Shown here piece after piece: positions 28,484 to 43,849 of a stretch of 64,000 bases of DNA. The notes beneath the pieces are model-generated. The model did no database searches and was not told the origin of the DNA. It saw only the letters and a list, made by a program, of their open reading frames with translations. The stretch lies in the NCBI RefSeq assembly GCF_003990975.1, contig NZ_RZJR01000006.1, forward strand, positions 310,001-374,000, given 5' to 3'. The position numbers and the translations under genes are program-made. Origin of the DNA: Cohnella sp. AR92 (GTDB lineage Bacteria; Bacillota; Bacilli; Paenibacillales; Paenibacillaceae). Within the stretch, counting starts at the first letter, position 1. Each line of letters opens with the position of its first letter.

Positions 28484-29530
28484 TTAATTCGCTCTCGCGA
28501 AATCATTCTTCAGCAGCTTCTCTACTTCCAGCGCCGCTTCTTCGGTCGACCGCGCATGAATGACGGTCTCCGATCCCGGCGTCCGCTGGCTGGAGCTATG
28601 TTCGTACTTGGGATCGTAATAAAACAATAACAACAGCATCACGGCCCGCTCGTACTTCTCTTCTCTCAGACAGAGGTCGATCTCGGCCGCGACGGGCGTA
28701 TGAATCGTGGACTTGATCTTGCGGAACGCTATCAGGCATTCCTCTTGATGGTTCCAAGGCTCATAATCGTTCAAGAGATTCTGGATGCGGGCTTCGAGCG
28801 GGAGCTCGATCCAGATCTCCTTCGCTTCCTCGCGCTTGCGAACCATGAGCTCCGGCTGGACGATCTTGCCGATGCGCTTCGCTTCGGCTTCGAACACCAA
28901 GAAGGGCGCTTGCTTGGCCCGCTGCAATTGATCGAAAAGCAACGAATCGAACATTTTCTGATTATTCGCCTTCAAGCCGATATTGCCGAAGATAGAGCCG
29001 CGATGACCCGCCATTCCCTCCAGGTCCAGTACGGCGATCCCGCGTTCCTCCAACCGATGCAGGATCTTCGTCTTGCCCGTGCCGGTCAATCCGTTCAGAA
29101 TGACGGCGGAAGCTGCGATATCCATCGTTGTCAGCTGTTCCAGAAGCCAATTCCGATAAGCCCGGTATCCTCCCGTCAAACGATTCACATGAATATCCAT
29201 CAAGGAAAGCAAAGTTGCCGTCGTTCGGCTGCGCATGCCGCCTCTCCAGCAGAAGACGGACTTCTTCCCCGGGATGGAGCCGATCTCTCGAATGAAAGCC
29301 GGCAGCTTCGCGGAGATGATCTCCAGGCCTCGATCCTTGGCCGCCTGCACGCCGACTTGCTTGTACAAAGTCCCGACCTCCGTTCTCTCCTCGTTGTTGA
29401 AGAAAGGAACGTTCACGCTGCCCGGGATCGAGGCTTCCTCGAATTCCCCCGGCGAGCGGACGTCGATCGTCGTCATCTCGCCTGCTTGCCGAAGCTCGAA
29501 CCAATGCTCAATGCTAATGTCTTGGAACAT
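28484..29530 (-). CDS. mnmH: tRNA 2-selenouridine synthase
   Basis: 348 aa from ATG 29530 (AGAAGGGA site). The frame continues 57 codons upstream into selD but without support. The N-terminal rhodanese domain carries the catalytic Cys in VFCWRGGMRSRT (about residue 97). The C-terminal P-loop domain has NGLTGTGKTKIL (about 145). The enzyme (SelU/YbbB) replaces sulfur by selenium at the wobble 2-thiouridine of tRNA Lys/Glu/Gln, through a geranylated intermediate. It is directly downstream of selD, which makes the selenophosphate donor. Confidence 0.94.
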   Translation of the reverse strand: MFQDISIEHWFELRQAGEMTTIDVRSPGEFEEASIPGSVNVPFFNNEERTEVGTLYKQVGVQAAKDRGLEIISAKLPAFIREIGSIPGKKSVFCWRGGMRSRTTATLLSLMDIHVNRLTGGYRAYRNWLLEQLTTMDIAASAVILNGLTGTGKTKILHRLEERGIAVLDLEGMAGHRGSIFGNIGLKANNQKMFDSLLFDQLQRAKQAPFLVFEAEAKRIGKIVQPELMVRKREEAKEIWIELPLEARIQNLLNDYEPWNHQEECLIAFRKIKSTIHTPVAAEIDLCLREEKYERAVMLLLLFYYDPKYEHSSSQRTPGSETVIHARSTEEAALEVEKLLKNDFARAN

Positions 29531-29550
29531 AGACGAATCCCTTCTTCCGA

Positions 29551-30600
29551 TCACTCGACCGTAATTCGGCCCGGGTGATCGGATGTAATCTCGCCGATAA
29601 GGCTGGCTTCCACGCCGGCCTCGACCAGCTCGGCGAGCAGACGCTCCGAAGCTTCCGCTTCCACGGAGATCAGCAGGCCGCCGGAAGTGACCGCGTCGCA
29701 CAGGATCCAGCGATCGATCTGGTCCATCTCTTCCGGGAAGTCGACATCGTCCTTGACATGGTTGAAGTTGTTCTTCGTTCCGCCGGGCACGAAGCCGTTC
29801 TCCGCCAATTCGCGAATGCGAGGCAGCTTCCGAACGTCGTCGTTCCGGATCACGAGCCCGTTCCCGCTTCCCTTCGCCATCTCCAACGCATGCCCGATAA
29901 GGCCGAAGCCGGTGACGTCCGTGCAGGCGTTGACCGGGTAAGGCTCCATGATCTCCGCGGCCCTCTTGTTCAGCGTCGCCATCACCTGCGTCATCCGCTT
30001 GATCTCTTCTTTGCTCAATTGGTCCTTCTTGATCGAGGTCGTCAGAATGCCGACGCCGATCGGTTTCGTCAGGATCAGCTTGTCTCCGGCTTTCGCTCCC
30101 GCATTCGTACGAACCCGCTTGGGATCCACGAGGCCTGTCACCGCAAGCCCGAACTTCGGTTCCTTGTCGTCGATGGAGTGTCCTCCGACCAGGGTCGCCC
30201 CCGCCTCGCGAACCTTATCGCCCGCTCCTCGAAGGATATCCGTCAGCACCTGCTTGTCCAGCGTGGAGATCGGGAAAGCGACGATATTTAACACCGTTAA
30301 AGGCTTGCCGCCCATCGCATAAATATCGCTGATGGCGTTGGCTGCGGCGATCTGGCCGAAGTCGTACGGGTCATCCACGATCGGGGTGAAGAAGTCGACC
30401 GTCTGGACGAGCGCCAGCTCGTCGCTAAGCCGATAGACGCCCGCATCGTCGCTCGTATCGAGTCCGACCAGCAGGTTCGGATTCGGCTCCGACGGAGGAA
30501 GGTTCCGTATCACCTGCTGCAGATCCGCCGGCCCTATTTTGCAGCCGCAGCCTCCTTTGGTGGAGTATGATGTAAGCTTCACTTGTTCGTTCGATTCCAT
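29551..30600 (-). CDS. selD: Selenophosphate synthase
   Basis: 349 aa. Makes selenophosphate from selenide, ATP and water. The catalytic loop is GGCGCKIGP, with Cys instead of selenocysteine at the active position (about residue 18) and the following Lys. AIR-synthase-like motifs AISDIYAMGGKP and VGGHSIDD, plus GTKNNFNHV, are present. Upstream of mnmH with a 20-nt gap. No selA or selB is in the window, so the visible role is tRNA selenation. Confidence 0.95.
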   Translation of the reverse strand: MESNEQVKLTSYSTKGGCGCKIGPADLQQVIRNLPPSEPNPNLLVGLDTSDDAGVYRLSDELALVQTVDFFTPIVDDPYDFGQIAAANAISDIYAMGGKPLTVLNIVAFPISTLDKQVLTDILRGAGDKVREAGATLVGGHSIDDKEPKFGLAVTGLVDPKRVRTNAGAKAGDKLILTKPIGVGILTTSIKKDQLSKEEIKRMTQVMATLNKRAAEIMEPYPVNACTDVTGFGLIGHALEMAKGSGNGLVIRNDDVRKLPRIRELAENGFVPGGTKNNFNHVKDDVDFPEEMDQIDRWILCDAVTSGGLLISVEAEASERLLAELVEAGVEASLIGEITSDHPGRITVE

Positions 30601-30673: not shown

Positions 30674-30702
30674 GAAAAGCCCCTCGGACAAGCCGAGGGG
30701 CT
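30674..30702 (-). terminator. Terminator at the end of the B12-uptake gene cluster
   Basis: Perfect 10-bp stem AGCCCCTCGG/CCGAGGGGCT, loop of 5, A-run on the plus strand giving a short U-tract on the minus strand, past the stop of the SLH-DUF4430 gene. The remaining gap to selD (30601-30673) holds the selD ribosome site and promoter region. Confidence 0.85.
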
Positions 30703-30730: not shown

Positions 30731-32032
30731 TTAAGCCGCAGGATGGCTGGAAGGATAGGATTGGTACGCCCGGAGCGCCACGACCGTCGCCATCTCCCGG
30801 GTTACTTCGCCTTGCGGGTTGAAGAGATTGCCTTGGCCTTGCAGAAGCTTCGCCGCAACCGCCTTCTCCACGTCCGACTTTGCCCAAGCGGAGACGTCTT
30901 GGCTGTCTTTAAATGTCAAGCCTGCCGACGCTCCCTTAAGGCCAAGCGCTTTGACCAGGATGGAAGCCATCTGCTCGCGCGTGATCGTGTCGTTCGGATG
31001 GAACTCTCCGTTGTAGCCGCTGATGAACCCGGCTTCGCTCGCGGTATTCACGTAAGAGAAGTACCACTTGTCCTTCGGGACATCCTTGAAGCTGCTGCTC
31101 GTCGAGGCAGACAAAGGAAGACCCAGCACGTTCACGAGCAGCTTCGCGAACTCCGCGCGCGTGATCGTCGCTTGAGGGTTGAGCTTTCCTTCGCTTCCTT
31201 GAAGGTATCCCTTGTCGACGGCCGTCTCGACGGCGGACAACGCCCAGCCGGAGACCGAACCGGCATCCGCGAAGGCTTTCTTCCAATCGACCAGCGGCGC
31301 CAAGCGGTTATAAGCGGCATCCACGCTTGCTTGCGTGCTCTCCAGATTCTCCAAGACCGAATAGGCATTCTCGTAAGCGGACTTCACGTCCGGCTTCTTC
31401 AGCTTCTCTTCCTTCGAGGACGAGCTGTTGATCGAAGCGACAAGCGCCGTCAGATCGTCCTTATCGGCGAATGGAACATAACCCTCCGCCCACTGGCTGG
31501 TGGTGATGTCGCTGCCGTACCCGTAGACGGAGAATTGATAGCGAATGACATCGCCGTCCTGCGGATGGTAATCCGATGGGCCGACCTCCGGCGGAACATT
31601 GTTGACGACCGACAACCAGCCCGCCATTTTCGAATAATCCAGCTCGCCAAGCCATTCATCGCCCGCCTCTCTGGCCGTCGGCTTCTCTTCCATACGGGTT
31701 TGAATGTATGCCGGAATGGTCGCTTCGACCGTCGAATCCTTGACCGCGGTCATGTAGAAGCCGCTGGCCGCCGTCCCTTGATAGCGCAGATTGCCTTCCC
31801 CTATAGCTCGAAGCAACAGGTTCGCTCCGTTCTCTCCCTGGTAGAACGGTACCTGGATCGGTTCCAGGTAATAGCCTTGGCCGAGCGTGAACTTCTCGAC
31901 CGATAGAGTGACCTTGCCGACAGGCGCGGTTCCCGTATCGGCGGCAGCCGCGTAGGCCCCCATGTTCGCGGTAATTCCCAGCGCCGCAATTCCCAATGAC
32001 AACAACGTGCTCAACGATTTCTTGCCTCTCAT
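30731..32032 (-). CDS. S-layer-anchored DUF4430 protein, putative cobalamin-binding surface protein
   Basis: 433 aa from ATG 32032 (AGAGAGG at 9 nt). Signal peptide (1-31, ending AYAAA), then a DUF4430-like region (about 35-190: KVTLSVEKFTLGQGYYLEP, WLSVVNNVPPE, DGDVIRYQFSVYGYG). A helical linker follows, then three SLH repeats (about 250-425, for example ITRAEFAKLLV, ITREQMASILVKA, VTREMATVVALRA). SLH repeats bind pyruvylated wall polymers. DUF4430 resembles the C-terminal beta domain of transcobalamin. As last gene of the riboswitch-led cluster, next to an ECF S component, it is inferred to hold B12 or a related corrinoid at the wall. Confidence 0.82.
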   Translation of the reverse strand: MRGKKSLSTLLSLGIAALGITANMGAYAAAADTGTAPVGKVTLSVEKFTLGQGYYLEPIQVPFYQGENGANLLLRAIGEGNLRYQGTAASGFYMTAVKDSTVEATIPAYIQTRMEEKPTAREAGDEWLGELDYSKMAGWLSVVNNVPPEVGPSDYHPQDGDVIRYQFSVYGYGSDITTSQWAEGYVPFADKDDLTALVASINSSSSKEEKLKKPDVKSAYENAYSVLENLESTQASVDAAYNRLAPLVDWKKAFADAGSVSGWALSAVETAVDKGYLQGSEGKLNPQATITRAEFAKLLVNVLGLPLSASTSSSFKDVPKDKWYFSYVNTASEAGFISGYNGEFHPNDTITREQMASILVKALGLKGASAGLTFKDSQDVSAWAKSDVEKAVAAKLLQGQGNLFNPQGEVTREMATVVALRAYQSYPSSHPAA

Positions 32033-32103
32033 CGATAACATCCTCTCTTTTCTACCAAAATGAATGTATGACTGCGTGTTACGCAGCGACTATGCAAACG
32101 AAC

Positions 32104-32841
32104 TTAGCGTTCGACGAGTCCATACTTGGTCTTGATCCGATCCAGCTTCTCGATCATGGGACGCGAGAGCGCGAACAGGAAGATCACCGTCGCGATCGCA
32201 TGCACCAGATCGAACCAGAAGCCTGTCCCGTAAGCGGCCATCAGCGTCTCCCAATTGAGCTTGGGCGTAAACATCATCACCGAGCCGATATTGATAATGC
32301 CGCCATAGATAATTAATGTCGTTAATCCTCCGAACAAACAGAGAGAGAAACGGGATCTTCTCAGCCAGCCTTTGCGATAGAGCAGTCCGGCGATGAAGCC
32401 GATGATGCCGAAGCAGAACATCTGCCACGGCGTCCAAGGCCCTTGGCCGAAGAAGAAGTTCGAGACGAAGCCGGTCGTCGCCCCGACGAGAAATCCGGCC
32501 TCCGCCCCGAAGCTGACGCCCGCGATGATCACGATCGCGACGACCGGCTTGAACTGCGGAAACATGAAGAACGCCGCCCTGCCGGCGACCGCGATGGCGG
32601 CGAGCACCGCGATGACGACCAGCTCTCTCGCTTGCGGCTTGCGCTTCTCGAAGACAAGCGCGAACGGAACGAGCGTATACAGAATGATCAGCAGGCTGAT
32701 GAAGTAATACTTCCGATCGTCTAGGACAAAGATTCCGAAAAGGATCGTTGCCGGGATGACGATCAGGATCAGCAGAGCGGCAAGCCAAGTGCGGCTCGAG
32801 AGCTTATGCGTCCTTATCGGTTGTTTCGGTTGATCTGGCAT
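32104..32841 (-). CDS. ECF transporter substrate-binding S component, predicted cobalamin
   Basis: 245 aa from ATG 32841. Six to seven transmembrane helices, with the typical S-component stretch FFMFPQFKPVVAIVIIAGVS and the helix-1-like motif. It overlaps the end of the ATPase gene by 28 bp, so translation is coupled. S components give an ECF transporter its specificity. Here specificity for cobalamin is inferred from the riboswitch and the transcobalamin-like neighbours, as in CbrT-type systems. Another corrinoid or cobamide precursor is possible. Confidence 0.85.
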   Translation of the reverse strand: MPDQPKQPIRTHKLSSRTWLAALLILIVIPATILFGIFVLDDRKYYFISLLIILYTLVPFALVFEKRKPQARELVVIAVLAAIAVAGRAAFFMFPQFKPVVAIVIIAGVSFGAEAGFLVGATTGFVSNFFFGQGPWTPWQMFCFGIIGFIAGLLYRKGWLRRSRFSLCLFGGLTTLIIYGGIINIGSVMMFTPKLNWETLMAAYGTGFWFDLVHAIATVIFLFALSRPMIEKLDRIKTKYGLVER

Positions 32842-34517
32842 AAGCGAATCACATCCTCCTCCGTAACCGCCATCGGATCGAGATGGCGCGCCATGCGATT
32901 GGCGGAGGTCGTGTAGAACGAATTCCCCGCGAAGAACGATGACGTCTCCTTGGTCGAGATGACGGTGCCGTCGAAGAACATGGCGCATTCCTCAGCGTAC
33001 TTGGCGCAGAACTCGATGTCGTGCGAGACCATGACCACCGTCTTGCCTTCCTCGTTCAGCCTCTTCAGGAGCTGGCCCAGCTTCTCCTTGAAGAAGTTGT
33101 CCAGCCCTTTCGTCGGCTCGTCCAGCAGCAGGATCGCCGGTTCCAGCAGCAGCACCTTGGCCAGCGCCGCCCTCTGCTGCTCCCCGCCGCTCAGATCGTA
33201 TGGATGCTTCTGAAGATGAGGCTCCATCTCCGCGAACCGAACAACCCGCTCGATCCGCTCCGCTTTCTCCTCGGCCGACAGCTTCAAGCCGGACAGCATC
33301 TCGTATAGATCAAGCTCGACCGTCTTCTTCACGAACAGAGATTGCGGGTTCTGGGGCAGGACGCCGAGGCGTCCCCGGAACAGCTTGCCCGGGCTCGTCG
33401 AAGCCGGGTCGTCGCCTCCGACTCGGACTTTGCCGCGATAAGGCTTCAGCACGCCGCTGATCAAGGACAACGTCGTCGTCTTGCCGGTCCCGTTCCCGCC
33501 GACAATCCCATAGAATTGGCCCTCTCTCACCTTCAAGGATAAATCTTTGATCGTATCCGGCGCGTGCTTGTCGAACTTGAACCAGACGTCCTTCAGCTCG
33601 ATGGCGATCGGCCGCTGCTCCTTCACCGGGACTTCGGTCAATGCCTCCGCCGTCCGGAGCGGGTATTGCGCCGCCTCTGCCGAACCCAGAACCGCGTCCA
33701 GCCATTGGCGACCTTCCTTCACGGTGATCGGAGGCTCCGATACGGCGTTCGTCTCCGCTTCGGCATGAATCCGCATCGGCGTCGGCATCGAGCGGAACAT
33801 CGGATGCCCGAGCTGCCGCAGCTTCTCGCCCGCTTCTCTCGGCGCCGCATCCGCCACCACGACGCCATGGTCAAGCACGATCAGGCGATCGGACACGGGA
33901 AGCACTTCTTCGAGGCGATGCTCCGTCAGAACGATCGTCGTTCCGAGCTCGCGGTTGATCTTGCTCAGCGTCCCGAGAAATTCCGCGGCCGCGATCGGGT
34001 CCAGCTGAGAAGTCGGCTCGTCCAGCACGAGCACGGACGGATGCATCGCCATAATGGACGCCAGATTCAGAAGCTGCTTCTGGCCTCCGGACAGTTCGGC
34101 GACATCCCGGTGGAACCAGGTCTGAATGCCGAAGTAGCTCGCCATCTCGGCGACCCGCAGCCGGATCGTCGGCGTATCGAAGCCGAGGCTCTCGAGGCCG
34201 AACGCCAGCTCGTGCCATACCTTGTCCGTGACGATCTGGTTATCCGGGCTTTGCAGCACGTAGCCGATCTCCGAAGCCTGCGTTCTGGCGTCCCATTCCG
34301 CGACCGGACGGCCGCGATAGAGAATCTCTCCTTCTCGCCGGCCGTGAGGCGTCAGCGCCGGCTTGAGGTGGCGGAGCAGCGTGCTCTTGCCGCAGCCGGA
34401 TTTGCCGCAGATCGTGACGAACTCTCCGCTTCGGATTCCGATGTCGATATCGGATAGGGCGCTGCGCTCCTGTTCGGGGAACGTGAAGCTTACATTCTGG
34501 ATGCGATAGATCTCCAT
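32814..34517 (-). CDS. ECF transporter double ATPase (fused A1-A2)
   Basis: 567 aa from ATG 34517 (GGAGG site). Two full ABC ATPase domains. The first has GKSGCGKST (about 37-45), ELSGGQKQ and LDEPTSQLDP. The second has GGNGTGKTT (about 335), DLSGGEQQRAALAK and LDEPTKGLD. Most ECF modules encode two separate ATPases, but here they are fused. It overlaps the T-component gene upstream by 28 bp and the S-component gene downstream by 28 bp. Confidence 0.93.
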   Translation of the reverse strand: MEIYRIQNVSFTFPEQERSALSDIDIGIRSGEFVTICGKSGCGKSTLLRHLKPALTPHGRREGEILYRGRPVAEWDARTQASEIGYVLQSPDNQIVTDKVWHELAFGLESLGFDTPTIRLRVAEMASYFGIQTWFHRDVAELSGGQKQLLNLASIMAMHPSVLVLDEPTSQLDPIAAAEFLGTLSKINRELGTTIVLTEHRLEEVLPVSDRLIVLDHGVVVADAAPREAGEKLRQLGHPMFRSMPTPMRIHAEAETNAVSEPPITVKEGRQWLDAVLGSAEAAQYPLRTAEALTEVPVKEQRPIAIELKDVWFKFDKHAPDTIKDLSLKVREGQFYGIVGGNGTGKTTTLSLISGVLKPYRGKVRVGGDDPASTSPGKLFRGRLGVLPQNPQSLFVKKTVELDLYEMLSGLKLSAEEKAERIERVVRFAEMEPHLQKHPYDLSGGEQQRAALAKVLLLEPAILLLDEPTKGLDNFFKEKLGQLLKRLNEEGKTVVMVSHDIEFCAKYAEECAMFFDGTVISTKETSSFFAGNSFYTTSANRMARHLDPMAVTEEDVIRLCQINRNNR

Positions 34518-35383
34518 TTGATGTCCTCCAAGATTTGAATGCCGACCGGCATGAGGCATAACGCGAAGTAAGCGACATAGACGATCGCGCTGAACGATGA
34601 GTAAGGATCCAACCGGATGGATGGAAAATAGCGGATCGTGTTCTCGCCAAGCGCCGCCCCCGCCAGAATGACCAGAAGGAGGCCGGCCAGGATGCCGAGA
34701 GCCAGCCGGTCCCGGTTATCGAAGCGGTAGAGCGAGAAGCTTGTCCGCTTCGGCAGCCCGTACCCTCTCGATCTCATGGAATCGGCCGTCTCGATCGCGT
34801 TCTCCAGCGCCCAGGTCGTCATGATGGAGACGATCCGAAGGCCATGCTTGGCCCTGCGGTACGGCGAGCCTTGCGTGACGTCCCTGCCGATGCTGCGCTG
34901 CGCATGGGAGATTCTCCGGATCTGGCTTTTGTACCGCGGCACGAATCGGAGAACCATCGAGAAGATAAGCGATAAAGCGGGAATCGCTCGTCCGAAAAGG
35001 TAAATGAATTTGTCCGACGTCATCACGGCGTTGTAGCAAGAGAACCAAATAATAACCGTCACGAACATGACAGCCGTAGCGACTCCGTACAGGATCGATT
35101 CCAGCGTGACCGGATTGCCGCTCTTCAAGTAGAAAAGAATCGTCACTCCCGCATGGTTGAACGCGGGATTGATCACGGCCGTTATCAAGAGGAGCGGCAG
35201 CATGTAGATCAGATTGAACTTAAGCGCACGCTTGCCTTTAAGCATCTGGGAATAAACGACGGCGCTGACCAAGGCGATAGCTTGCAGGACAGGATGCATG
35301 AAGAACATGCCGAACGCGATGACCGAGACGAAGAAGAGCATGTTGACGACGGGATGGTAACCGGAGAACGCGTCCCGCTTCAC
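34490..35383 (-). CDS. ECF transporter transmembrane T component
   Basis: 297 aa. About six transmembrane segments. The cytoplasmic coupling helices carry ADSMRSRGYGLPKR (the EcfT A-R-G-like motif) and FVPRYKSQIRRISHAQRSIG. It couples ATP hydrolysis in the A-A protein to toppling of the S component. The start overlaps the stop of the DUF4430 protein gene (4 bp), showing a tightly packed operon. Confidence 0.93.
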   Translation of the reverse strand: MKRDAFSGYHPVVNMLFFVSVIAFGMFFMHPVLQAIALVSAVVYSQMLKGKRALKFNLIYMLPLLLITAVINPAFNHAGVTILFYLKSGNPVTLESILYGVATAVMFVTVIIWFSCYNAVMTSDKFIYLFGRAIPALSLIFSMVLRFVPRYKSQIRRISHAQRSIGRDVTQGSPYRRAKHGLRIVSIMTTWALENAIETADSMRSRGYGLPKRTSFSLYRFDNRDRLALGILAGLLLVILAGAALGENTIRYFPSIRLDPYSSFSAIVYVAYFALCLMPVGIQILEDIKWRSIASRM

Positions 35384-36351
35384 TTCTGCGCCCCCGCTGC
35401 CTTGTCTCCGCCGACGTCACGGCCGAGGTCGCACGTATACACCCATTCGATGACGTCTCCGTCCTTCAATGGATAGCGGCTGCTGCCGTAGTTCGGGAAC
35501 CATCCGTTCACCTTGTACATCCACCCGCTTAGCTCGCCGCAGTCGAATTCGTAAATGTTGTTGATCCCTTCGATATAATTGCTGTTGTAGATCGGGGTCA
35601 TGGAGAACTCCATGTGAATCTTGTGCTTCTTCATCTCCCGCTGCAGAACGTCGAACACGGATTCTCCCTCGTAGAAGCTCACCTTCTGCGACGCGAAAAT
35701 AACGCCGTCATCCGGTAGCACCTCGAGCTTATCCTCATTGAAGTAGTCGAGGTTATCGAGGATCGTCTTGCACGTGACGGAGAGAGTGGCCGTCAGCACT
35801 TTCTTCTTGTCGACGTCCGCGTCCTGCCACTCTACCGGCTTCGGCTTGCCTTCTGGGACAGGTTCGGTCAGGTATTTGTCCTTCCCTCCCGCCGATGCCG
35901 AAGGCGACGGCGAAGCCGGTTTGCCAGCGGCGGTCTTGTTCCCCTTGCTTGGAGTCGCGCCGGCGCTTGGCTTAGAAGCGGTCTCCTTCGAGGGAGAAGC
36001 GCTCGCAGGTGCCGAGACCGATGGCGATGGCTCCCCTGACGATGGCAGAGCGGATGATTGGCCCGGACTTTCCTTCGGCGCGATCGTCGAGTTCGCGGCC
36101 TCCGGGGCCGATGCCGACTCTTGAGGAGCCGGTTCGGCGGATGAATCCGGCGCTTCCGAAGACGGATCCGAACTTGCGTCCTGCCCCGCTGAAGGCGAAG
36201 CTTCTGCTCCAAGATCGGAAGATTCGGTTGCGGCCGGCGGCGCCGCCGGCTCGGATCGGCCGGAAGGACGATCTCCGCCCCAGACGAAAGCAAGCGCCAG
36301 CACGCACAGGATCCCTGCCGCGACCAGCCATTTTTTAGGTGTCATTCTCAT
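35380..36351 (-). CDS. Membrane-anchored DUF4430 protein with Pro/Ser/Ala stalk
   Basis: About 323 aa from ATG 36351. GTG 36363 and ATG 36345 are alternatives, and the GGAG site is poorly spaced for all. One N-terminal transmembrane segment (about 8-25) is followed by a 130-residue low-complexity linker rich in Pro, Ser, Ala and Glu. The DUF4430 domain comes at about 180-310 (VSFYEGESVFDVLQREMKK, ELSGWMYKVNGWFPNYGSSRY, DGDVIEWVYTCDLGRDVG). The stalk could span the wall, presenting the domain between S-layer and membrane. A role as a relay between the surface binder and the ECF S component is inference. Confidence 0.8.
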   Translation of the reverse strand: MRMTPKKWLVAAGILCVLALAFVWGGDRPSGRSEPAAPPAATESSDLGAEASPSAGQDASSDPSSEAPDSSAEPAPQESASAPEAANSTIAPKESPGQSSALPSSGEPSPSVSAPASASPSKETASKPSAGATPSKGNKTAAGKPASPSPSASAGGKDKYLTEPVPEGKPKPVEWQDADVDKKKVLTATLSVTCKTILDNLDYFNEDKLEVLPDDGVIFASQKVSFYEGESVFDVLQREMKKHKIHMEFSMTPIYNSNYIEGINNIYEFDCGELSGWMYKVNGWFPNYGSSRYPLKDGDVIEWVYTCDLGRDVGGDKAAGAQK

Positions 36352-36374
36352 TGGTTTATGCACGCTCCATGCGA

Positions 36375-36405
36375 CTAAGCAAGGGCGCCGTACGCCCTTG
36401 CTTAG
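36375..36405 (-). other. Perfect intercistronic stem-loop without U-tract
   Basis: CTAAGCAAGGGCG/CGCCCTTGCTTAG, 13 bp perfect, loop of 5. It lies between the stop of the giant SLH gene and the next gene. No T-run follows on the minus strand, so it is more likely a message-stability or partial-termination element. Confidence 0.75.
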
Positions 36406-36419
36406 CTCAAATCATTTCC

Positions 36420-39400
36420 TTATTTGACGTCTGTCAGGTCATAGAGCCTAGGGAGCCCTTCTGCGAAACGTTCGTATGCGACAAGCGCATACATCGCTTG
36501 ATCGGTCGCCATGGCGTCGGTGTTCCCCGGACTCGCTCCGCCATTGGCGACGCCGCCGGTTTTGACGTGATAGAATCCGCCCTCAGGGGCCGCGAAGCTT
36601 AACAGCGCCTCGAGAGCCGAATGCCCGTTCTTCACGAACCGGGCATCCGCGGCCGGATCGATGCCGAGACTTGTCAGGGCCACGATTACCTGAGCGATGC
36701 TCTCCGAGTTCACGGTCTGCGAGATCGCGAAGCTTCCGTCCGCCAGTTGGGCCTTGGACAGCCAAGCGACGCCGCGGTCGACCGCCGCATGCACCTTCTC
36801 ATTCGTATCGTAGTACGGTGCGAGCGCTTGGAGCGCCATCGACGTGATGTCCGGATCGGATTCCTTCGCGTTGGCGCCGAGGGCCCATCCGCCGCCGGCC
36901 ACTTCGCGCTTCAGGATGAAGTCGATCAGCAACTCCCGCGTTGTCTGCGTCTTGACGCCGGTCACGGCCGGTATCTCGTAATTCCGGCTGTCGAGAGCGA
37001 TCAGCGCGAAGATCGGGCCGTTGATGCCCTGCTTGATCAACGTCTCGTAATCCGCGAGCTTATCGAGCAGGTTGTACCCTGCCGCATCCGTGACGCTCTT
37101 GCCTAAGGCCGACAGGGCCAGAATTACCCGGTCGTATTCCGTGTACTTCACCGAATGCAGGTTGCCAAGCTTGTCTTTTAACGTCTTGTTCAAGTTCTCG
37201 ATATATTTATCGTAATAAGACTCCGGAACTTGAACCCCCGAACGGGACAGACCGAATACCGTCCACTCTCCTCCGATGCTGCCGACGATCGGATCGGCGA
37301 TCGTCTTCTGCATGTACGCGGCGGTCATCGGAATGAGCTTTTGTACTTTGTTGCGCAGATCTTCGGCCGTCGACCCTTCGTCCGCCTTGTGCTCGTTCCG
37401 GTAGTCATATGCTCTCATGGCGACCACGATCGCCATCTCGCGCGTTACCGAATCCTTCGGAGCGAATCGATCGCCCTGCCCCTTCATGATCTGAAGCGAG
37501 AGAATCTTCTGCACGTCTGACTTCGCCCAAGCCGATACTTGGTCCATATCCTTCAGCGATTCGGCTGCGGTCGCCGATTCAAGATCGAGTGCCCTAGACA
37601 GGATCGAAGCCATCTGCTCCCGGGTAATCCGGTCGTTCGGGTTGAACTTGTCGCCATAACCGCTGACGAAGCCGGCCTGTTGCGCGGTATTCACGTAAGC
37701 GTAGAACCACTTGTCTTCTGTGACGTCCGTGAAGCCGTTCGTCTTCGTCTCGGATGCGGCTATTCCGAGGACGCTTACCAGAAGCTTCGCGAATTCGGCT
37801 TTGGTAATCGAAGCCTGGGGACTCAGCTTGCCGCCGCTGCCTTGCACGAAGCCTTGGCTCGCAGCCTTGCTCATCGAGTCGAATGCCCAGCTAGAGACGC
37901 TTGCCGCATCCGAATACTGCTTCTTCAGATCAAAGTCTTCGGTTGCCGGTGCCGCAATGCCGTAAGTCAGATACGTCGTAAAATGATTCGTCTTCACGAT
38001 CAGATCGTTGCCGTCCGCATAGGCGTAGGCGAACTTCTCTTGTCCGGCCGTGGCGTAAGCTCCTTGCTCGTCGGACTTGTAGATCGTGATCGGAGTGAAC
38101 TTCCCGTTCTCGACGAAGCCGGCCAGCTGGTCCTTCGCCCCTGCGATCGTCAACGTAACGGGCCTGTCAAAGACGAAGGAGTCGTTATCGCTTCCCATCG
38201 AGAACGAATGAACGATGCCTTTAAGCTCCCGGCCTTCGCTCAGGCTTTCCTTGACCAGCCCGGCGAGCTTGTCGGCGTTCGCGGCGTCCGCGAACATCTC
38301 GAGCGTCTCTCCGCCAGCCTTGAGCTGCGTTCCGTAATCAATTGCAAGCTTATAATCGCCTCTGGTAACGATCAGGTTGGGAATGGCGGCTTTAACCGCC
38401 TTAAGGTTAATAAAGAACTTGAATGGCGACGTTGCCGGAATGTCGTAATAAATCTTACCGGAAGACTTATCCGGATACAGGACGTCCAGTACGAAGTCCT
38501 GCTGCTGCTCCGTCGGGAGCTTGACCACGACGTCGCCTTCTTCGGCTCCTTCGCTTCCGCCGTCCATCGGCCGCTTGCCCGGATCTTGGCCGAGGTCCTC
38601 GCCTAGATTCGTCGTGTAGCGCCATTGAACCCTATCGCCGTTCTTAAGCGTGTAATTGCTCGCGCCGTAATTCGGATATTTGCCGTTGACGCTGTACATC
38701 CAGCCGCTGCCGGAGCCGTGATCGAATTCGCCGTCTCCCGCTATGGATTGCAAGTAGACGCTGTCGTACTTGTCCGTCCATGCGTAGCTGTACTCGATGT
38801 TCCTCGCGTCAAGCTCGCGCTGAAGGACGCTCCATACGGTGTCGCCCCCGTACAGCTCGACGCTTGCCGGATCAAGGACATACCCCTTGCCGATCGTATT
38901 CTTGTCGATGGAGAGGGTGATCTTGCCCGTCGAAGCTTGTCCGCCGCCGGTCCCTCCGCCCGAGTTGACGGCGGCCGTCGAGTAAGCGACGTAGTCGGTA
39001 AAGTGATTGGTCTTGACGATCAGGTCGGGGCCGCTATCGTATGCATATTCGTCCAAGCCGCTTTCGATTCCTTCCGAGTCGGATGCGAATCGCGCGATCG
39101 GATGCGCGGATCCGCTCTCGATATAAGCGGCGGACTTGCCCTTCATGCCCGAGAACGTAAGGGTGACATAGGAGTCGAACTCGACCCGGTCCGTTCCTCC
39201 CATCGAGAAGGCTTGGGAGATCGAATCGAGAGATCGGCCTTTCTCCACGATTTTGCCGATCGTGCTCTTTAGGGCGTCGCTGGCCGGATCAAGCTTCGTC
39301 AGCCACTCAAGCTCCGAACTGTCTCCGCGCGTTACCTCCGAATTCCGCGGAAGGAGGACCGAAACGCTGCCCTTTACGGCTTCGATTCCCGGCAGCTTGC

Positions 39401-40781
39401 TTCCGAACGGAAGCTTAAAGCTAACGGCGGAATCCGAGTCGTCCGGGATTGCGACCTTGATCGTGCGGGAAGAGTCAGCTGCGGAGACCAGAATTCGATA
39501 GCTGCGATGATCGGCCGGAATCTCAATGCTTGCCGGATCCTCATCGGGGAGGTTGATTTGTACGGGGCCGCCTGCATTGATGCCCGTATCCGTCATCTCG
39601 TATAAGCGGGTCTGTCCCTGCTTCATCCGTTCGTAGGCGACGAGCGCGTAGGTTCCTTGATCGGTCGCCATTCCGTTCGCGGCGCCCGTCAGAACGTGCT
39701 TGAACCCGCCTGTCGGCACGGCGAAGCTTAGCAAAGCGTCGATCGCGGAGATTCCGTTCTTGACGAATCTCGGATCCGTTGCCGAATCGATTCCCAATTC
39801 GGATAAGGCCGTAATGACCTGAGCGATACTCTCGCTGCTGACCGTTCCGTAGCTCGCGAAGCCTCCCGTCGAATTCTGGGCATTCGACAGCCAGGTCACC
39901 GCGCGGTCGACGGCCGCTCTGACGTTCTCGTTCGAGTCATAGTACGGAGCCAGAGCCTGGAGTGTCATGGCGGTCAGATCGACGTCCGCAGCCGAGGTGC
40001 CGAGCGCCCATCCCCCCGCTTGCGCGGTTCCGGCCTTGATTTCCTTGCTCAGAAGATAGGCTAGGAGCTTCTCTCGCGATGCCTGGGTCTTCCCTTCGGC
40101 GGCCTGCGGGAACTCGAATTGAAGGGTATCCATAGCGATTAAAGCGAAGATTGGACCGTTAATTCCTTGCTTGACGATATAATCGTAATCGGATAAGGCC
40201 TGCGTGATGTCGTACCCCGCTACATAGCGCGGATCCAATCCCGCCGAGGCGAATCCGATGATCAATCTGGAATGCTCGGTGCTCCTGTTCTTGTCCAGAA
40301 CGCCGCCGTTGGCGTTCATTAGATTCTTAACGCTGTTAACGACATTCTTGCGATAGATCTCATAATAGTTGGCAGGCACCGAATAGCCGGCTCTCGCAAG
40401 CGAGAGTACGCTCCATTCGCCGCCGGAAGTGCTGAATGTCGGGTTCGGAACGTCGGCCAGAATCTTCGCCAGGTTCTTCTCCAACTGCTCGCTGACCGCG
40501 TCCGGGCTGGCCAGCTCCTCCGAATCGCTCAGCGCATTCAGACTGCCCGGATCTTCCGATTGGTTCGGTTCTTCAAGGCTGCTCGGTTCTTTCGAGGCGT
40601 TCGGATCTTCAACATTGCTAGGTTCTTCAAGACTGCTTGCATCTTCTGAACGGCCGATCGACGCTTGAAGCCCGTCCTCCGCTGCGAAGGCTCGGCTAGG
40701 CGCGACTCCAACGTTCGCGGCGAATAACGTAATGAAAAGGACAAAAGCCAGTAACCCGTATAAAGTTTTCTTTATCTTCAT
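36420..40781 (-). CDS. Giant S-layer-anchored transcobalamin-like protein (two alpha/alpha barrels, DUF4430, SLH)
   Basis: 1453 aa from ATG 40781 (AAAGG site). Layout: signal peptide 1-34; acidic Ser/Pro linker 40-95; alpha/alpha barrel 1 at 100-400 of the prenyltransferase/terpene-cyclase-like type (KQGINGPIFALIA, LQALAPYYDSNE, SESIAQVI, GMATDQ); beta module 410-605; DUF4430 at 619-730 (GSGWMYSVNGKYPNYG); second beta module 750-945, a copy of the first (DLIVKTNHFT in both); three SLH repeats 955-1125; barrel 2 at 1140-1453, clearly homologous to barrel 1. Animal intrinsic factor and transcobalamin grip B12 between such a barrel and a DUF4430-like domain. It is the first gene after the cobalamin riboswitch. 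Direct cobalamin binding is inferred. Confidence 0.88.
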   Translation of the reverse strand: MKIKKTLYGLLAFVLFITLFAANVGVAPSRAFAAEDGLQASIGRSEDASSLEEPSNVEDPNASKEPSSLEEPNQSEDPGSLNALSDSEELASPDAVSEQLEKNLAKILADVPNPTFSTSGGEWSVLSLARAGYSVPANYYEIYRKNVVNSVKNLMNANGGVLDKNRSTEHSRLIIGFASAGLDPRYVAGYDITQALSDYDYIVKQGINGPIFALIAMDTLQFEFPQAAEGKTQASREKLLAYLLSKEIKAGTAQAGGWALGTSAADVDLTAMTLQALAPYYDSNENVRAAVDRAVTWLSNAQNSTGGFASYGTVSSESIAQVITALSELGIDSATDPRFVKNGISAIDALLSFAVPTGGFKHVLTGAANGMATDQGTYALVAYERMKQGQTRLYEMTDTGINAGGPVQINLPDEDPASIEIPADHRSYRILVSAADSSRTIKVAIPDDSDSAVSFKLPFGSKLPGIEAVKGSVSVLLPRNSEVTRGDSSELEWLTKLDPASDALKSTIGKIVEKGRSLDSISQAFSMGGTDRVEFDSYVTLTFSGMKGKSAAYIESGSAHPIARFASDSEGIESGLDEYAYDSGPDLIVKTNHFTDYVAYSTAAVNSGGGTGGGQASTGKITLSIDKNTIGKGYVLDPASVELYGGDTVWSVLQRELDARNIEYSYAWTDKYDSVYLQSIAGDGEFDHGSGSGWMYSVNGKYPNYGASNYTLKNGDRVQWRYTTNLGEDLGQDPGKRPMDGGSEGAEEGDVVVKLPTEQQQDFVLDVLYPDKSSGKIYYDIPATSPFKFFINLKAVKAAIPNLIVTRGDYKLAIDYGTQLKAGGETLEMFADAANADKLAGLVKESLSEGRELKGIVHSFSMGSDNDSFVFDRPVTLTIAGAKDQLAGFVENGKFTPITIYKSDEQGAYATAGQEKFAYAYADGNDLIVKTNHFTTYLTYGIAAPATEDFDLKKQYSDAASVSSWAFDSMSKAASQGFVQGSGGKLSPQASITKAEFAKLLVSVLGIAASETKTNGFTDVTEDKWFYAYVNTAQQAGFVSGYGDKFNPNDRITREQMASILSRALDLESATAAESLKDMDQVSAWAKSDVQKILSLQIMKGQGDRFAPKDSVTREMAIVVAMRAYDYRNEHKADEGSTAEDLRNKVQKLIPMTAAYMQKTIADPIVGSIGGEWTVFGLSRSGVQVPESYYDKYIENLNKTLKDKLGNLHSVKYTEYDRVILALSALGKSVTDAAGYNLLDKLADYETLIKQGINGPIFALIALDSRNYEIPAVTGVKTQTTRELLIDFILKREVAGGGWALGANAKESDPDITSMALQALAPYYDTNEKVHAAVDRGVAWLSKAQLADGSFAISQTVNSESIAQVIVALTSLGIDPAADARFVKNGHSALEALLSFAAPEGGFYHVKTGGVANGGASPGNTDAMATDQAMYALVAYERFAEGLPRLYDLTDVK

Positions 40782-40860
40782 GCCTCTCAACCTTTCGACT
40801 AGCTAAACTCAACTGCAGGTCCATCCATGTTCTGCATCATGCCTCCGTCGCGTACAAACC

Positions 40861-40895
40861 AAAAAAACCTCTTAACCCAGTAGGTTAAGAGGTTT
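40861..40895 (-). terminator. Riboswitch-controlled terminator (expression platform)
   Basis: On the minus strand AAACCTCTTAACC pairs with GGTTAAGAGGTTT (13-bp perfect stem, loop 5) and is followed by a U-tract. It lies between the cobalamin aptamer and the first gene, as expected for transcriptional OFF control when B12 is bound. Confidence 0.9.
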
Positions 40896-40976
40896 AATCC
40901 ATGCCGCGGTCGTCAAGTTTACCAGCCATGAATCAAACACCCCCTATCGCTCGTAGAGTTGATGGTGTTGTCATTC

Positions 40977-41137
40977 AGGCAGGTCTTCTGGCTCGAGAGT
41001 CGATGCGCTTGCTGCCTTCCCGGTTGCCCAGTGGCGCATTAGCAAGAGCTTCTCTCTTACAGCGGCGGGACCGCGCGGGATTCTCACCCGGCTTCCCTTT
41101 TAATCCTTGCGTAAGACGGCAAGGAACCTGAACTCCT
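40977..41137 (-). ncRNA. Cobalamin (adenosylcobalamin-type) riboswitch aptamer
   Basis: On the minus strand the B12 box GCCACTGG is at 41035-41028. It is preceded by the conserved blocks GGGAAxCCGGGTGAGAATCC and CGCGGTCCCGCCGCTGT (about 41105-41060), and followed by GGAAGGC and CCAGAAGACCTGCC (40991-40978), which closes the aptamer. Order and spacing fit the Rfam Cobalamin family. It controls the gene cluster running to 30731. Confidence 0.93.
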
Positions 41138-41152
41138 ATTCGATTAGTCTCT

Positions 41153-41181
41153 ATCTTATCGCGTTCCTATGAATTTGTCAT
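41153..41181 (-). promoter_or_regulatory. Promoter driving the riboswitch transcript
   Basis: Minus-strand -35 ATGACA (41181-41176), 17-nt spacer and -10 TAAGAT (41158-41153). Transcription would begin near 41146, just before the aptamer. No terminator is visible between modB and this promoter, so read-through from mod is possible. Confidence 0.6.
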
Positions 41182-41227
41182 TGCTTGTTCTTGTCGCATT
41201 CCTGATATTTTTGCGTCCGGCGTTCTC

Positions 41228-41914
41228 TCAGCGGTTGAACGACTCGGATGCCGAAGCCTTCCGGCCCCTTCCCGTCGCCAGCAGCATCAGGAACGAGATG
41301 ATGAGAATCGTTCCGGTCCAAGCCCATGCCAGCTTCGTATGCCCCGCGTCGACGGCGACATAGATCGCGGTCGGAAGCGTCTGGGTCCGCCCCGGGATAT
41401 TCCCGGCGATCATCAGCGTGGCGCCGAACTCCCCCAACCCTCTCGCGAAACCGAGAATAAACGCGGTCACCAGCGAACGGTAGCTGAGCGGCAGCGTGAT
41501 ATACCGGAACACCTGCCACTCGTTCGCTCCGATCGATCTGCCGGCTTCCTCCAGGCTGCGGTCGACCGAATCGAAGCCCGCTCTGAGCGACTGGTAGACG
41601 AGCGGGAATGCGACGACGACCGCCGCGATTACCGCCGCCCACCAGGTGAAGATGATCGGAGCGCGGAATGCCCATTCGATCAGCTGTCCCGCCCAGCTTC
41701 GGCGGCCAAGCGCAACCAGCAGGATGAACCCCACGACCGTCGGAGGAAGCACCAGCGGCAGCATGAAGGCCGTCTCGACTAGCACTTTCCCCTTGAACGC
41801 TGCGCGGCTCATCCATCTGGCGGCGATCATTCCCGCAATCATGACTATAACGCCGGCCAGTAGAGACACTTGAAGCGACAGTTTGATCGGCTCCCAGTAA
41901 TTCGCTCCATTCAT
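41228..41914 (-). CDS. modB: Molybdate ABC transporter permease ModB
   Basis: 228 aa. Five to six transmembrane helices, the EAA loop EEAGRSIGANEWQVFRYITLP contacting the ATPase, and FARGLGEFGATLMIAGNIPGRTQTLP, characteristic of ModB. It follows modA with a 2-nt gap. No modC ATPase gene follows: the next element is the cobalamin riboswitch. The ATPase must be encoded elsewhere or be shared. Confidence 0.94.
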   Translation of the reverse strand: MNGANYWEPIKLSLQVSLLAGVIVMIAGMIAARWMSRAAFKGKVLVETAFMLPLVLPPTVVGFILLVALGRRSWAGQLIEWAFRAPIIFTWWAAVIAAVVVAFPLVYQSLRAGFDSVDRSLEEAGRSIGANEWQVFRYITLPLSYRSLVTAFILGFARGLGEFGATLMIAGNIPGRTQTLPTAIYVAVDAGHTKLAWAWTGTILIISFLMLLATGRGRKASASESFNR

Positions 41915-41916
41915 CG

Positions 41917-42726
41917 TTATGCCTTAGGCGCCGAGAAGCCGTATTCGGTAAAAATCTTCATGGCGTCATCGGTCTGCAGATAGTCGTAGAAAGCTTTGGC
42001 GGCATCCGGATGGCTCGTTGCCGCAACGATGCCGATCGGGTATTCGATCTCCTTATACGTTGCCGGGTCGACCGAGAAGGCGATCTTGACCTTGCCAGAG
42101 ACGAGCGCGTCCGTCTTGTAGACGAAGCCGACATCCGCGTTGCCGGTCTCTACGTATTGAAGCACTTGCTTGACGTCCTTCCCTTGCACCATCTTGCTCC
42201 GCAGAGAAGCCCAAAGGCCCGCTTGGGTAAGGGATTCTTGCGCATATTGGCCGGCTGGAACACTGTCCGGGATGCCGATTGCGACGAATTTTACCGCGTC
42301 CGAGGAGAGATCCGTTACGTTTGCAATCCGTGTATCGCTATCCTTCGGAACAACGGCGACCAGTTCGTTGTTCAGGAGCGTCGTCGTTTGATCGGCTTGG
42401 ATAAGCTCCTTATCGACCAAAGCCTTCATGTTCTTCGTTGCGGCAGAGAGGAACAGGTCGGCTGGAGCTCCCTGCTCGATCTGCTGCTGAAGAGCTCCGG
42501 AAGCGCCGAAGTTAAAGCGAAGGGTCACATTTGGCGCCACGGTCGAGTATGCTTTCTGAATGTCGTTTAGAGCGTCGGTCAGGCTGGCCGCGGCGGAGAT
42601 CGTCAACTCTGCTTTCTCTGCCGGAGCCGCTGCATCTTCCTTCGAATGGTCGTTGCCGCATGCCGCCATCGAGATCATCAAGACGGTCAACAGCAGGAAC
42701 AGTCCCATTTTCCAGATCGGTCGCAT
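41917..42726 (-). CDS. modA: Molybdate-binding lipoprotein ModA
   Basis: 269 aa. Lipoprotein signal with SMAACGN (Cys about 22). The periplasmic-binding-protein fold contains LTISAAASLTDALNDIQ, FNFGASGALQQQIEQGAPADLF (oxyanion-binding Ser residues), IGIPDSVPAGQYA and VGFVYKTDAL. Captures molybdate or tungstate at the cell surface for ModB. Start ATG 42726 behind AGAGGTG. Probably controlled by the divergent HTH regulator. Confidence 0.94.
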   Translation of the reverse strand: MRPIWKMGLFLLLTVLMISMAACGNDHSKEDAAAPAEKAELTISAAASLTDALNDIQKAYSTVAPNVTLRFNFGASGALQQQIEQGAPADLFLSAATKNMKALVDKELIQADQTTTLLNNELVAVVPKDSDTRIANVTDLSSDAVKFVAIGIPDSVPAGQYAQESLTQAGLWASLRSKMVQGKDVKQVLQYVETGNADVGFVYKTDALVSGKVKIAFSVDPATYKEIEYPIGIVAATSHPDAAKAFYDYLQTDDAMKIFTEYGFSAPKA

Positions 42727-42746
42727 CTCTACAACACCTCTCCAAA

Positions 42747-42776
42747 TTATATCTAATTATATTTATTTATATCTAA
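42747..42776. promoter_or_regulatory. Three 10-bp tandem iterons between modA and its divergent regulator
   Basis: TTATATCTAA (42747-42756), TTATATTTAT (42757-42766) and TTATATCTAA (42767-42776) follow each other head to tail, one helical turn each. They sit in the 160-nt divergent gap in an otherwise GC-rich region. Candidate cooperative operator for the HTH regulator. Confidence 0.6.
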
Positions 42777-42886
42777 ACATCATCATACTTAGCGTCTACT
42801 GGTTTGACAACCCTGCTTCGCTTCGATTGTGCTACAATACAATCAATCGAACCCTCCATGTGAGAATGTCCAAGGGAGAATGGCGA

Positions 42887-43849
42887 ATGACCGAAGAAAT
42901 GTCCTACACGACCGAGGAGATTGCGAAGCTCCTGAGAATATCCAAGCTGACGGTATACGACTTGATCAAGAAGGGCGAGCTCCCCGCTTACCGGGTCGGC
43001 AAGCAGATGAGGGTGGATTCTACGGATCTGGAAGCTTATAAAAGACGATCCAAGGAGGCCGTCGCCGCCCATGAGGAATCCGGCAAGCCCGTCCATTCCG
43101 TTCCGTCGTTCCCCGCCGCCTCTTCCCCCGCTTCCGGCAGCCGGCGTCCGATCGTCATCACCGGGCAGGACGTCAGCCTCGATATCTTGGCGAAGCACAT
43201 GGAGAAAAACATTCCGGGCGTGCGGCCTCTTCGAGCCTACGTCGGCAGCCTGGACAGCCTGATCGCCATGTACCGCGGAGAATCGGATATCGTCAGCACC
43301 CATCTGCTGGACGGAGATACCGGAGAATACAACCTCCCCTACATCCGCAAGCTGCTGATCGGCTCCTCCTACCTGGTAGTGAACCTGCTCAGCCGACAAG
43401 CGGGCTTCTATGTGCGGAAGGGCAATCCGAAGAAGCTGTACGGCTGGGACGATCTTAAGCAGCCGGGGCTGCGCATCGTGAATCGCGAGCGAGGCTCGGG
43501 GGCGCGAGTTCTGCTGGACGAGCAGCTGCGGCTGAACGGCATTCCGAGCTCCGGACTGGCGGGATATGACCGGGAGGAGAACAATCACCTGGGAGTCGCG
43601 GGCAAAGTGGCATCGGGCGAAGCCGATGCCGGAGTCGGCATCGAGAAGGCGGCGGCGATCGTCGGCGGGGTCGATTTTGTCCCGTTGGCGAAGGAACGCT
43701 ACGATCTTGTTCTGCTCAAGCGTCCGGACAACCTGCCGTGGATCGAGTCCGTCCTGGCGATTCTTCGTTCGGAATCGTTCTTAAGCGAGCTGCGCTCCAT
43801 CGCCGGCTATGATCTGTCGCTTACCGGCCGGATTCTCCTGGAGACATAA
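42887..43849 (+). CDS. HTH regulator with periplasmic-binding-like sensor domain, putative molybdate regulator
   Basis: 320 aa from ATG 42887, 7 nt after AAGGGAGA. The frame extends far upstream but crosses the divergent promoter. Residues about 5-55 are an excisionase/MerR-like HTH (YTTEEIAKLLRISKLTVYDLI, then KGELPAYRVGKQMRVD). Residues about 95-315 are a type 2 substrate-binding domain of the ModA-related group (VSLDILAKHME, VGSLDSLIAMYRGESDIVSTH, NRERGSGARVLLDEQL). Such proteins sense molybdate, tungstate or a related anion and control mod genes. Divergent position supports this. A strong terminator follows. Confidence 0.88.
   Translation: MTEEMSYTTEEIAKLLRISKLTVYDLIKKGELPAYRVGKQMRVDSTDLEAYKRRSKEAVAAHEESGKPVHSVPSFPAASSPASGSRRPIVITGQDVSLDILAKHMEKNIPGVRPLRAYVGSLDSLIAMYRGESDIVSTHLLDGDTGEYNLPYIRKLLIGSSYLVVNLLSRQAGFYVRKGNPKKLYGWDDLKQPGLRIVNRERGSGARVLLDEQLRLNGIPSSGLAGYDREENNHLGVAGKVASGEADAGVGIEKAAAIVGGVDFVPLAKERYDLVLLKRPDNLPWIESVLAILRSESFLSELRSIAGYDLSLTGRILLET

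Follow-up and report, generated by a model that had tools for sequence, protein, structure and literature searches.

The closest described precedent for the cluster considered here, six genes behind a cobalamin riboswitch in Cohnella sp. AR92, is the set of bacterial transcobalamin-like domains described by Burroughs et al. in 2007 (PMC1796856). These domains, which are often fused to toroids and accompanied by CbiO/CbiQ genes, were predicted to scavenge B12 or its precursors, with paralogous surface proteins suggested to form complexes and a transfer to animals being proposed (PMC1796856). Hence, the core idea of the present reading is already predicted in that work. The cluster lies in the window, i.e., the whole stretch of 64,000 nucleotides that was analysed (positions 310,001 to 374,000 of contig NZ_RZJR01000006.1), and it resembles the SLBB proteins of that study in its Gram-positive surface DUF4430-type domains, toroid fusions, two paralogues per operon and CbiO/CbiQ components. 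As compared with the passages of that paper dealing with these proteins, the riboswitch, the SLH anchoring, the S component, the wall-to-membrane split and the double-toroid fusion are particular to the window, and a word search of its main text does not return the term "S-layer". Beyond the earlier prediction, the present analysis adds a quantified linkage to the riboswitch, a CbrT-like S component, SLH and other anchors, a fusion history and a gene order suggestive of a split carrier.

In Bacteroides, the surface capture of B12 reportedly relies on a β-propeller (BtuG), as opposed to a toroid combined with DUF4430. There, as would be the case in the window, a surface-exposed capture protein stands ahead of a membrane transporter; however, the Bacteroides system belongs to the outer membrane of a Gram-negative bacterium (PMC6143338). 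Animal transcobalamin, intrinsic factor and haptocorrin appear, on the basis of predicted models, to share the same two folds with the window proteins, and the C-terminal domain of the animal TCN proteins is also named DUF4430 (PMC4350170). Unlike in these carriers, the toroid and DUF4430 of the window are separated by an extra domain or reside on separate proteins. On the membrane side, the point of comparison is ECF-CbrT from Lactobacillus delbrueckii, an energy-coupling factor (ECF) transporter for cobalamin with the structure 6FNP (PMC5997447). The core of the window EcfS matches chain A of this structure (182 aa, labelled "Membrane protein"), which we infer to be CbrT from its length and the code 6FNP given in the paper. 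As against ECF-CbrT, the window encodes a dedicated T-AA'-S set within one cluster, an N-terminal extension of EcfS and wall partners, of which none are described for ECF-CbrT in the available text of its report (PMC5997447). Among the matches listed from open-licence PMC, by titles and the starts of abstracts, no experimental work on DUF4430 or on wall-bound Gram-positive B12 capture was recognised. In an initial annotation of the sequence, no experimental study of an S-layer B12 relay was known to its author; B12 scavenging as such had been predicted in 2007 (PMC1796856).

The observations made in the initial annotation were confirmed, and its interpretation of the locus as a capture and relay system is partly supported. 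The cluster probably captures B12 or related corrinoids at the wall by means of transcobalamin-like domains and likely passes them via a membrane DUF4430 protein to a CbrT-like ECF transporter. The B12 reading of the cluster is well supported; corrinoid binding, the order of transfer and the delivery to EcfS are steps that we infer.

Cobalamin riboswitches and B12 use

The six closely spaced genes run on the same strand (30731-40781, -) from behind the cobalamin riboswitch and its terminator up to a second terminator-like hairpin (Table 1). The riboswitch, placed initially at 40977-41137, extends further on both sides in the RF00174 match, which spans model positions 1-189 of 189 and lies far above the gathering score of 31.5. 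The leader stretch 40905-40855, containing the terminator hairpin, has a folding energy of -21.4 kcal/mol (z -5.62), with 0 of 200 shuffles equally good.

A survey of 148 family genomes, the host's own included, found DUF4430 in 64 and a cobalamin riboswitch in 144. The DUF4430 hits listed, at least 150 in number, form 77 clusters in 61 genomes, three genomes with weak hits only (G018, G044 and G144) being left out. Ahead of 70 of these 77 clusters lies a same-strand cobalamin riboswitch at a distance of under 6 kb (median 2.0 kb), as compared with about 0.1 linked clusters expected from a rough estimate of three riboswitches per 6.2 Mb genome. Matches of at least 77 bits account for 64 of these links, and weak matches of 32.6-40 bits for the other six. 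Among the 81 loci selected by their EcfS (see below), a stringent B12-box regular expression returned a plus-strand site in only 37. It was dropped as too strict because Rfam, when given 15 of the 80 relatives (13 without such a site, plus L070 and L104), detected a riboswitch preceding the cluster in 13 of the 15 (11 cobalamin and 2 adenosylcobalamin (AdoCbl) riboswitches), namely in L070, L104 and 11 of the 13 loci without a site, missing L065 and L087.

Two further observations concern these riboswitches. In five genomes (G024, G048, G069, G106 and G118), weak and short matches (33-40 bits, about 110-130 nt) precede DUF4430 genes whose open frames span about 700-960 aa, and perhaps represent a shorter riboswitch class. 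One locus contains a second, weak cobalamin riboswitch match (L036:469-632, 35.9 bits) ahead of a strong one.

The host appears to use B12 without making the corrin ring, since it encodes CobS, the class II ribonucleotide reductase NrdJ (572 bits) and three B12-binding domains, while CbiC was not found in its genome (assembly rated 99.98% complete). This 6.0 Mb genome has two cobalamin riboswitches and three DUF4430 matches, the latter all within the present cluster. The other riboswitch (C24:272583-272751; L116, G000 C24:262000-275500) leads genes that by eye resemble nrdI-nrdE-nrdF, which code for a B12-independent ribonucleotide reductase; together with the class II NrdJ encoded elsewhere in the host, this likely constitutes a B12-dependent choice between ribonucleotide reductases.

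Domain architectures, folds and gene order

The large wall protein displays the order signal, toroid 1, X domain, DUF4430, X domain, three SLH repeats and toroid 2. Its original description as a 1453-residue SLH protein with alpha/alpha barrels and DUF4430 was borne out by Pfam, which recovers three SLH stretches (4.1e-34), DUF4430 (1.1e-20; 74.3 bits against a cut-off of 23.8) and toroid-type matches in both halves (SQHop_cyclase_C, 1e-10; Prenyltrans, 2.5e-6). The toroids are identical in 157 of 307 alignment columns, which points to a duplication, and the two X domain copies flanking DUF4430 matched no Pfam family in the search of this protein. The membrane-stalked DUF4430 protein and the complete ECF transporter were likewise recovered, the latter comprising a CbiQ-type EcfT, two fused ATPases and an ECF_trnsprt-type S component, all in one gene cluster and hence with a dedicated module. 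In the PDB, the best match of EcfS is 6fnp_A (E 2e-11, residues 66-242), followed by 4hzu_S (E 0.014), with about 65 extra N-terminal residues lying outside the 6fnp_A match. As for the second proposed SLH-DUF4430 protein, the three SLH repeats stood, whereas its DUF4430 is borderline, with 21.7 bits falling below the cut-off of 23.8 and 24.2 bits being obtained when it is searched with its neighbours.

When a predicted model of the region from toroid 1 through the X domain to DUF4430 was compared to the PDB using Foldseek, ranks 1-15 were all occupied by transcobalamin, haptocorrin or intrinsic factor, with the isolated human transcobalamin beta domain at ranks 17-18. Within this single-chain model, the wall DUF4430 aligns to 5np4 with a TM(target) of 0.78 and a root-mean-square deviation (rmsd) of 2.6 Å, and to 5no0 with 0.80 and 2.4 Å, consistent with a predicted β-grasp fold like that of the transcobalamin beta domain. 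The earlier claim that the locus combines the same two folds as the animal carriers is supported by these top ranks, with some qualifications. A β-rich stretch of about 245 residues lies between toroid 1 and DUF4430 in the large wall protein, and the relative placement of these domains is unsettled in the model (pTM 0.54; full-length rmsd of 23-26 Å to the carriers), on account of which the protein is not a simple copy of an animal carrier. Further, the toroids alone resemble several kinds of α/α-toroid enzymes as much as transcobalamin in structure matches. A single animal-type carrier was rejected as a candidate, as domain order and spacing differ in the large wall protein.

Scanning genome contigs for EcfS recovered 259 relatives; the best 80 of them were retained and make up, together with the window, 81 loci. 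These 80 are mostly from Paenibacillus, and also from Cohnella, Clostridia and one Bacillus, with the window EcfS sharing 89% identity with its counterpart in Cohnella fermenti and 85% with the one in C. thailandensis. In each of the 80, the alignment to the query begins no later than residue 18, and thus the N-terminal extension is common to the relatives. A lone DUF4430 gene lies directly before EcfT in 73 of the 81 loci, and at 529 bases in a 74th (L103). Upstream of this lone DUF4430, the nearest domain-bearing gene encodes a toroid in 68 of these 73 loci (69 of 74 with L103), within 300 bases in 61 cases and further off in eight, where another gene may lie between, as genes without one of the scored domains were not counted. 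In the other five of the 74 loci, the nearest domain-bearing gene lacks a toroid (one) or none was seen (four). Among the remaining seven of the 81 loci, three show no EcfT, one (L115) is arranged differently and three (L072, L109 and L112) are taken up below. As a separate observation, a PQQ-type β-propeller gene replaces the toroid gene before the stalk DUF4430 at L070:4209-6569, where a cobalamin riboswitch precedes it, and at L114:1943-4696.

A pattern search for anchors in the 69 toroid genes found SLH in 56, dockerin-like ends in five, LPxTG-like ends in two and a lipobox in two; four show none of these patterns, although Pfam recognises a dockerin in one of them (L065). Thus, the anchor changes while the toroid, the stalk DUF4430 and the ECF transporter stay. 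The DUF4430 part and the terminal SLH-toroid part form one reading frame in 41 of the 81 loci, as in the window, whereas a separate short protein consists of SLH and toroid in 16 others, in several of them beside a distinct DUF4430-SLH protein (for example in L058, L094 and L101). The large protein of the window, with its SLH repeats in the middle, would most readily be explained by two wall proteins having become fused.

Conservation, expressed per piece as the median over the loci of the best match's identity to the window, is highest in the stalk DUF4430 region (79.7%, 74 loci) and EcfS (72.9%, 80), followed by toroid 2 (64.7%, 70), EcfT (64.5%, 76), EcfA (63.2%, 76), the wall DUF4430 (62.8%, 73), toroid 1 (49.8%, 70) and SLH (48.7%, 58); toroid 2 is hence better kept than toroid 1. 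Within the aligned stalk DUF4430 (window 35395-35715, -), a pair of cysteines is conserved in 63 and 72 of 74 sequences, the candidate roles for which are a disulfide or a cobalt ligand. In the wall DUF4430, a histidine occupies the position of the first of these cysteines in 31 of 39 sequences.

A proposed capture route and its alternatives

When internal cobalamin is scarce, an RF00174 leader generally lets transcription through. With both aptamer and terminator present, low internal cobalamin would permit transcription of the cluster, and the SLH repeats would fix both wall proteins to wall polymers. Capture of the ligand would fall to toroid 1 and its DUF4430, possibly along with the small DUF4430-SLH protein, and toroid 2 and the membrane-anchored DUF4430 would meet around B12. 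The stalk DUF4430 would deliver it to EcfS, with import powered by EcfT-AA'. Once imported, the corrinoid would be available to the host, which has CobS for salvage and the class II ribonucleotide reductase as one user.

In this route, the gene order of wall toroid, membrane DUF4430 and EcfT-A-S resembles a transcobalamin whose two parts are divided between the wall and the membrane. The separately made alpha and beta domains of human transcobalamin associate only upon the addition of cobalamin, and the beta domain alone binds cobalamin (PMC5599065), which makes it reasonable that a wall toroid and a membrane DUF4430 could close on B12 in trans. We tentatively suggest, as a possible if doubtful scenario, that the two might so carry B12 across the thick wall to the ECF transporter and that animals might have inherited the fused form. 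Were this correct, the family would represent a living bacterial stage of the machine that became animal intrinsic factor and transcobalamin, following the transfer proposed by Burroughs et al., and would offer small, well-conserved proteins for testing the origin of the carriers in the test tube.

The contact between toroid 2 and the stalk DUF4430 was tested by the co-variation of distances, as partial correlations uncorrected for shared descent. For this pair the value is 0.45 in 69 loci (bootstrap 5-95% 0.22-0.62; 0.29 by rank), 0.29 without five outliers (0.25 by rank) and 0.41-0.42 in 47 closer loci. Where both toroids are present (38 loci), toroid 2 and the stalk give 0.38 (0.24 by rank), toroid 1 and the stalk -0.19, toroid 1 and the wall DUF4430 0.35, and toroid 2 and the wall DUF4430 0.19. 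The test leans weakly towards the pairing of toroid 2 and the stalk. It was given little weight because the wall and stalk DUF4430 domains correlate too (0.35-0.41), as do toroid 2 and EcfA (0.37-0.38), because the stalk and EcfS do not in the 69 loci, and because of the uncorrected shared descent.

Several observations weigh against the capture of B12 at the wall and its passage to EcfS. At the riboswitch cut-off, seven of the 77 DUF4430 clusters are unlinked, one of which (G064 C27) starts 410 bases from a contig end and two of which (G072 C9 and G082 C70) have sub-threshold matches nearby. In L072, L109 and L112 (3 of 81 loci), EcfT is present and no DUF4430 or toroid gene was found upstream. 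CbiC occurs in 9 of 64 DUF4430 genomes, and therefore scavenging is not strictly tied to auxotrophy; the comparison with 23 of 84 other genomes (Fisher p 0.07, no tree correction) was not used as proof. The cobalamin specificity of EcfS would follow from a distant match. In structure matches of toroid 2 alone, cyclases, epimerases and GH105 hydrolases rank level with or above transcobalamin. At the sequence level, toroid profiles matched terpene cyclases and no transcobalamin in the PDB at E <= 0.1, the stalk DUF4430 profile had no significant match there (best 0.15), and the solved animal carrier chains went unmatched in the DUF4430 and toroid searches (E <= 0.1; E <= 10 for the stalk DUF4430). 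Finally, the distances of the stalk DUF4430 and EcfS show no clear co-variation (partial correlations of -0.06 in 69 loci and of 0.23 in 38, the latter 0.12 by rank), and thus direct delivery to EcfS is unsupported by this test.

The cyclases, GH105 hydrolases and epimerases among the sequence and fold matches of the toroids could mean that the latter are wall enzymes, either polysaccharide hydrolases or terpene-cyclase-like, with only the membrane DUF4430 and the ECF transporter handling B12. This is improbable: animal B12 carriers are the top matches of the toroid-DUF4430 model, and an enzymatic role would not explain why, in 69 of 74 loci, the domain-bearing gene closest upstream of the stalk DUF4430 encodes a toroid. 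ECF-CbrT transports cobalamin in purified form (PMC5997447), which, along with the absence of clear co-variation between stalk DUF4430 and EcfS, would fit with the S component taking free B12 directly, the wall proteins merely storing or concentrating it. However, the stalk DUF4430 is the most conserved piece (79.7%) and its gene adjoins EcfT, suggesting an essential membrane step, and we regard capture without a relay as unlikely.

The ligand itself admits a serious, if minority, alternative, namely that the system mainly captures other corrinoids or precursors, such as cobinamide and cobamides lacking 5,6-dimethylbenzimidazole (DMB), which the host remodels, rather than vitamin B12. The presence of CobS and the failure to find CbiC fit with such salvage, and cobinamide is both taken by ECF-CbrT (PMC5997447) and bound by the human beta domain (PMC5599065); yet nothing separates these ligands here, as the riboswitch reports on cobalamin and not on the imported substrate. 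By comparison, it is highly improbable that the operon imports cobalt, another metal or a tetrapyrrole, with the riboswitch merely coupling this import to the need for B12. While EcfT is CbiQ-type and cobalt transporters are known riboswitch targets (PMC3766115), no CbiM/CbiN family was recovered among the Pfam hits of the six proteins, and cobalt would not serve de novo synthesis of the corrin ring in a host without CbiC. Cobalt import as the principal function was rejected in view of the CbrT-like S component and of CbiC not being found.

Feature coordinates and neighbouring genes

Table 1. Features of the cluster in window coordinates, in the direction of transcription
Feature	Position	Strand	Basis
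Promoter-like site (ATGACA, 17 nt, TAAGAT)	41153..41181	-	Consensus scan, 9/12 matches; weak
Cobalamin riboswitch aptamer RF00174	40961..41146	-	124.6 bits, E 7.4e-31
Intrinsic terminator of riboswitch leader	40865..40895	-	Terminator-hairpin scan
Large wall protein (1453 aa with ATG 40781 as start; reading frame open from TTG 40790)	36420..40781	-	Open reading frame
Alpha/alpha toroid 1 (approximate borders)	39576..40469	-	AF2 model, pLDDT 90.5 (toroid1-X-DUF4430)
X domain, first copy, β-rich (approximate borders)	38871..39548	-	Predicted model
DUF4430 (transcobalamin beta-domain-like) of wall protein	38613..38846	-	Pfam; model match to 5np4/5no0
X domain, second copy (approximate borders)	37902..38483	-	Repeat of first copy
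Three SLH repeats of large wall protein	37419..37898	-	Pfam; S-layer protein Sap chains in PDB, E about 1e-18
Alpha/alpha toroid 2	36429..37340	-	AF2 model, pLDDT 93.5; 51% identical to toroid 1
Membrane-anchored DUF4430 protein with a hydrophobic segment at its N-terminus and a long stalk rich in Pro, Ser and Ala	35380..36363	-	Sequence; Pfam
DUF4430 domain of stalk protein	35434..35667	-	Pfam 9.1e-18, 64.9 bits against cut-off 23.8
EcfT, CbiQ family	34490..35383	-	Pfam
EcfAA', two fused ATPases	32814..34559	-	Pfam
EcfS, CbrT-like, with N-terminal hydrophobic extension	32104..32841	-	Pfam ECF_trnsprt; PDB match
Small wall protein: borderline DUF4430 and three SLH repeats	30731..32041	-	Pfam
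Terminator-like hairpin directly 3' of last gene	30678..30702	-	10 pairs, 8 G-C

The start of EcfT lies 4 bases ahead of the end of the stalk gene, that of EcfAA' within the 3' end of EcfT, and that of EcfS 28 bases ahead of the end of EcfAA'; the six genes are presumably read as a single transcript. The promoter-like site is weak evidence, since six such sites occur in the region as against 3.7 in shuffles, and terminator-like sites likewise occur there at the shuffle rate (10 as against 9.4).

Upstream of the riboswitch and outside the unit, inspection by eye suggests a molybdate ModA/ModB pair (window 41228-42726, -) and, in divergent orientation, a helix-turn-helix protein that contains a binding-protein-like domain (42560-43849, +). 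Just downstream of the cluster (28484-30600, -), genes for selenophosphate synthase and tRNA 2-selenouridine synthase were likewise recognised by eye.

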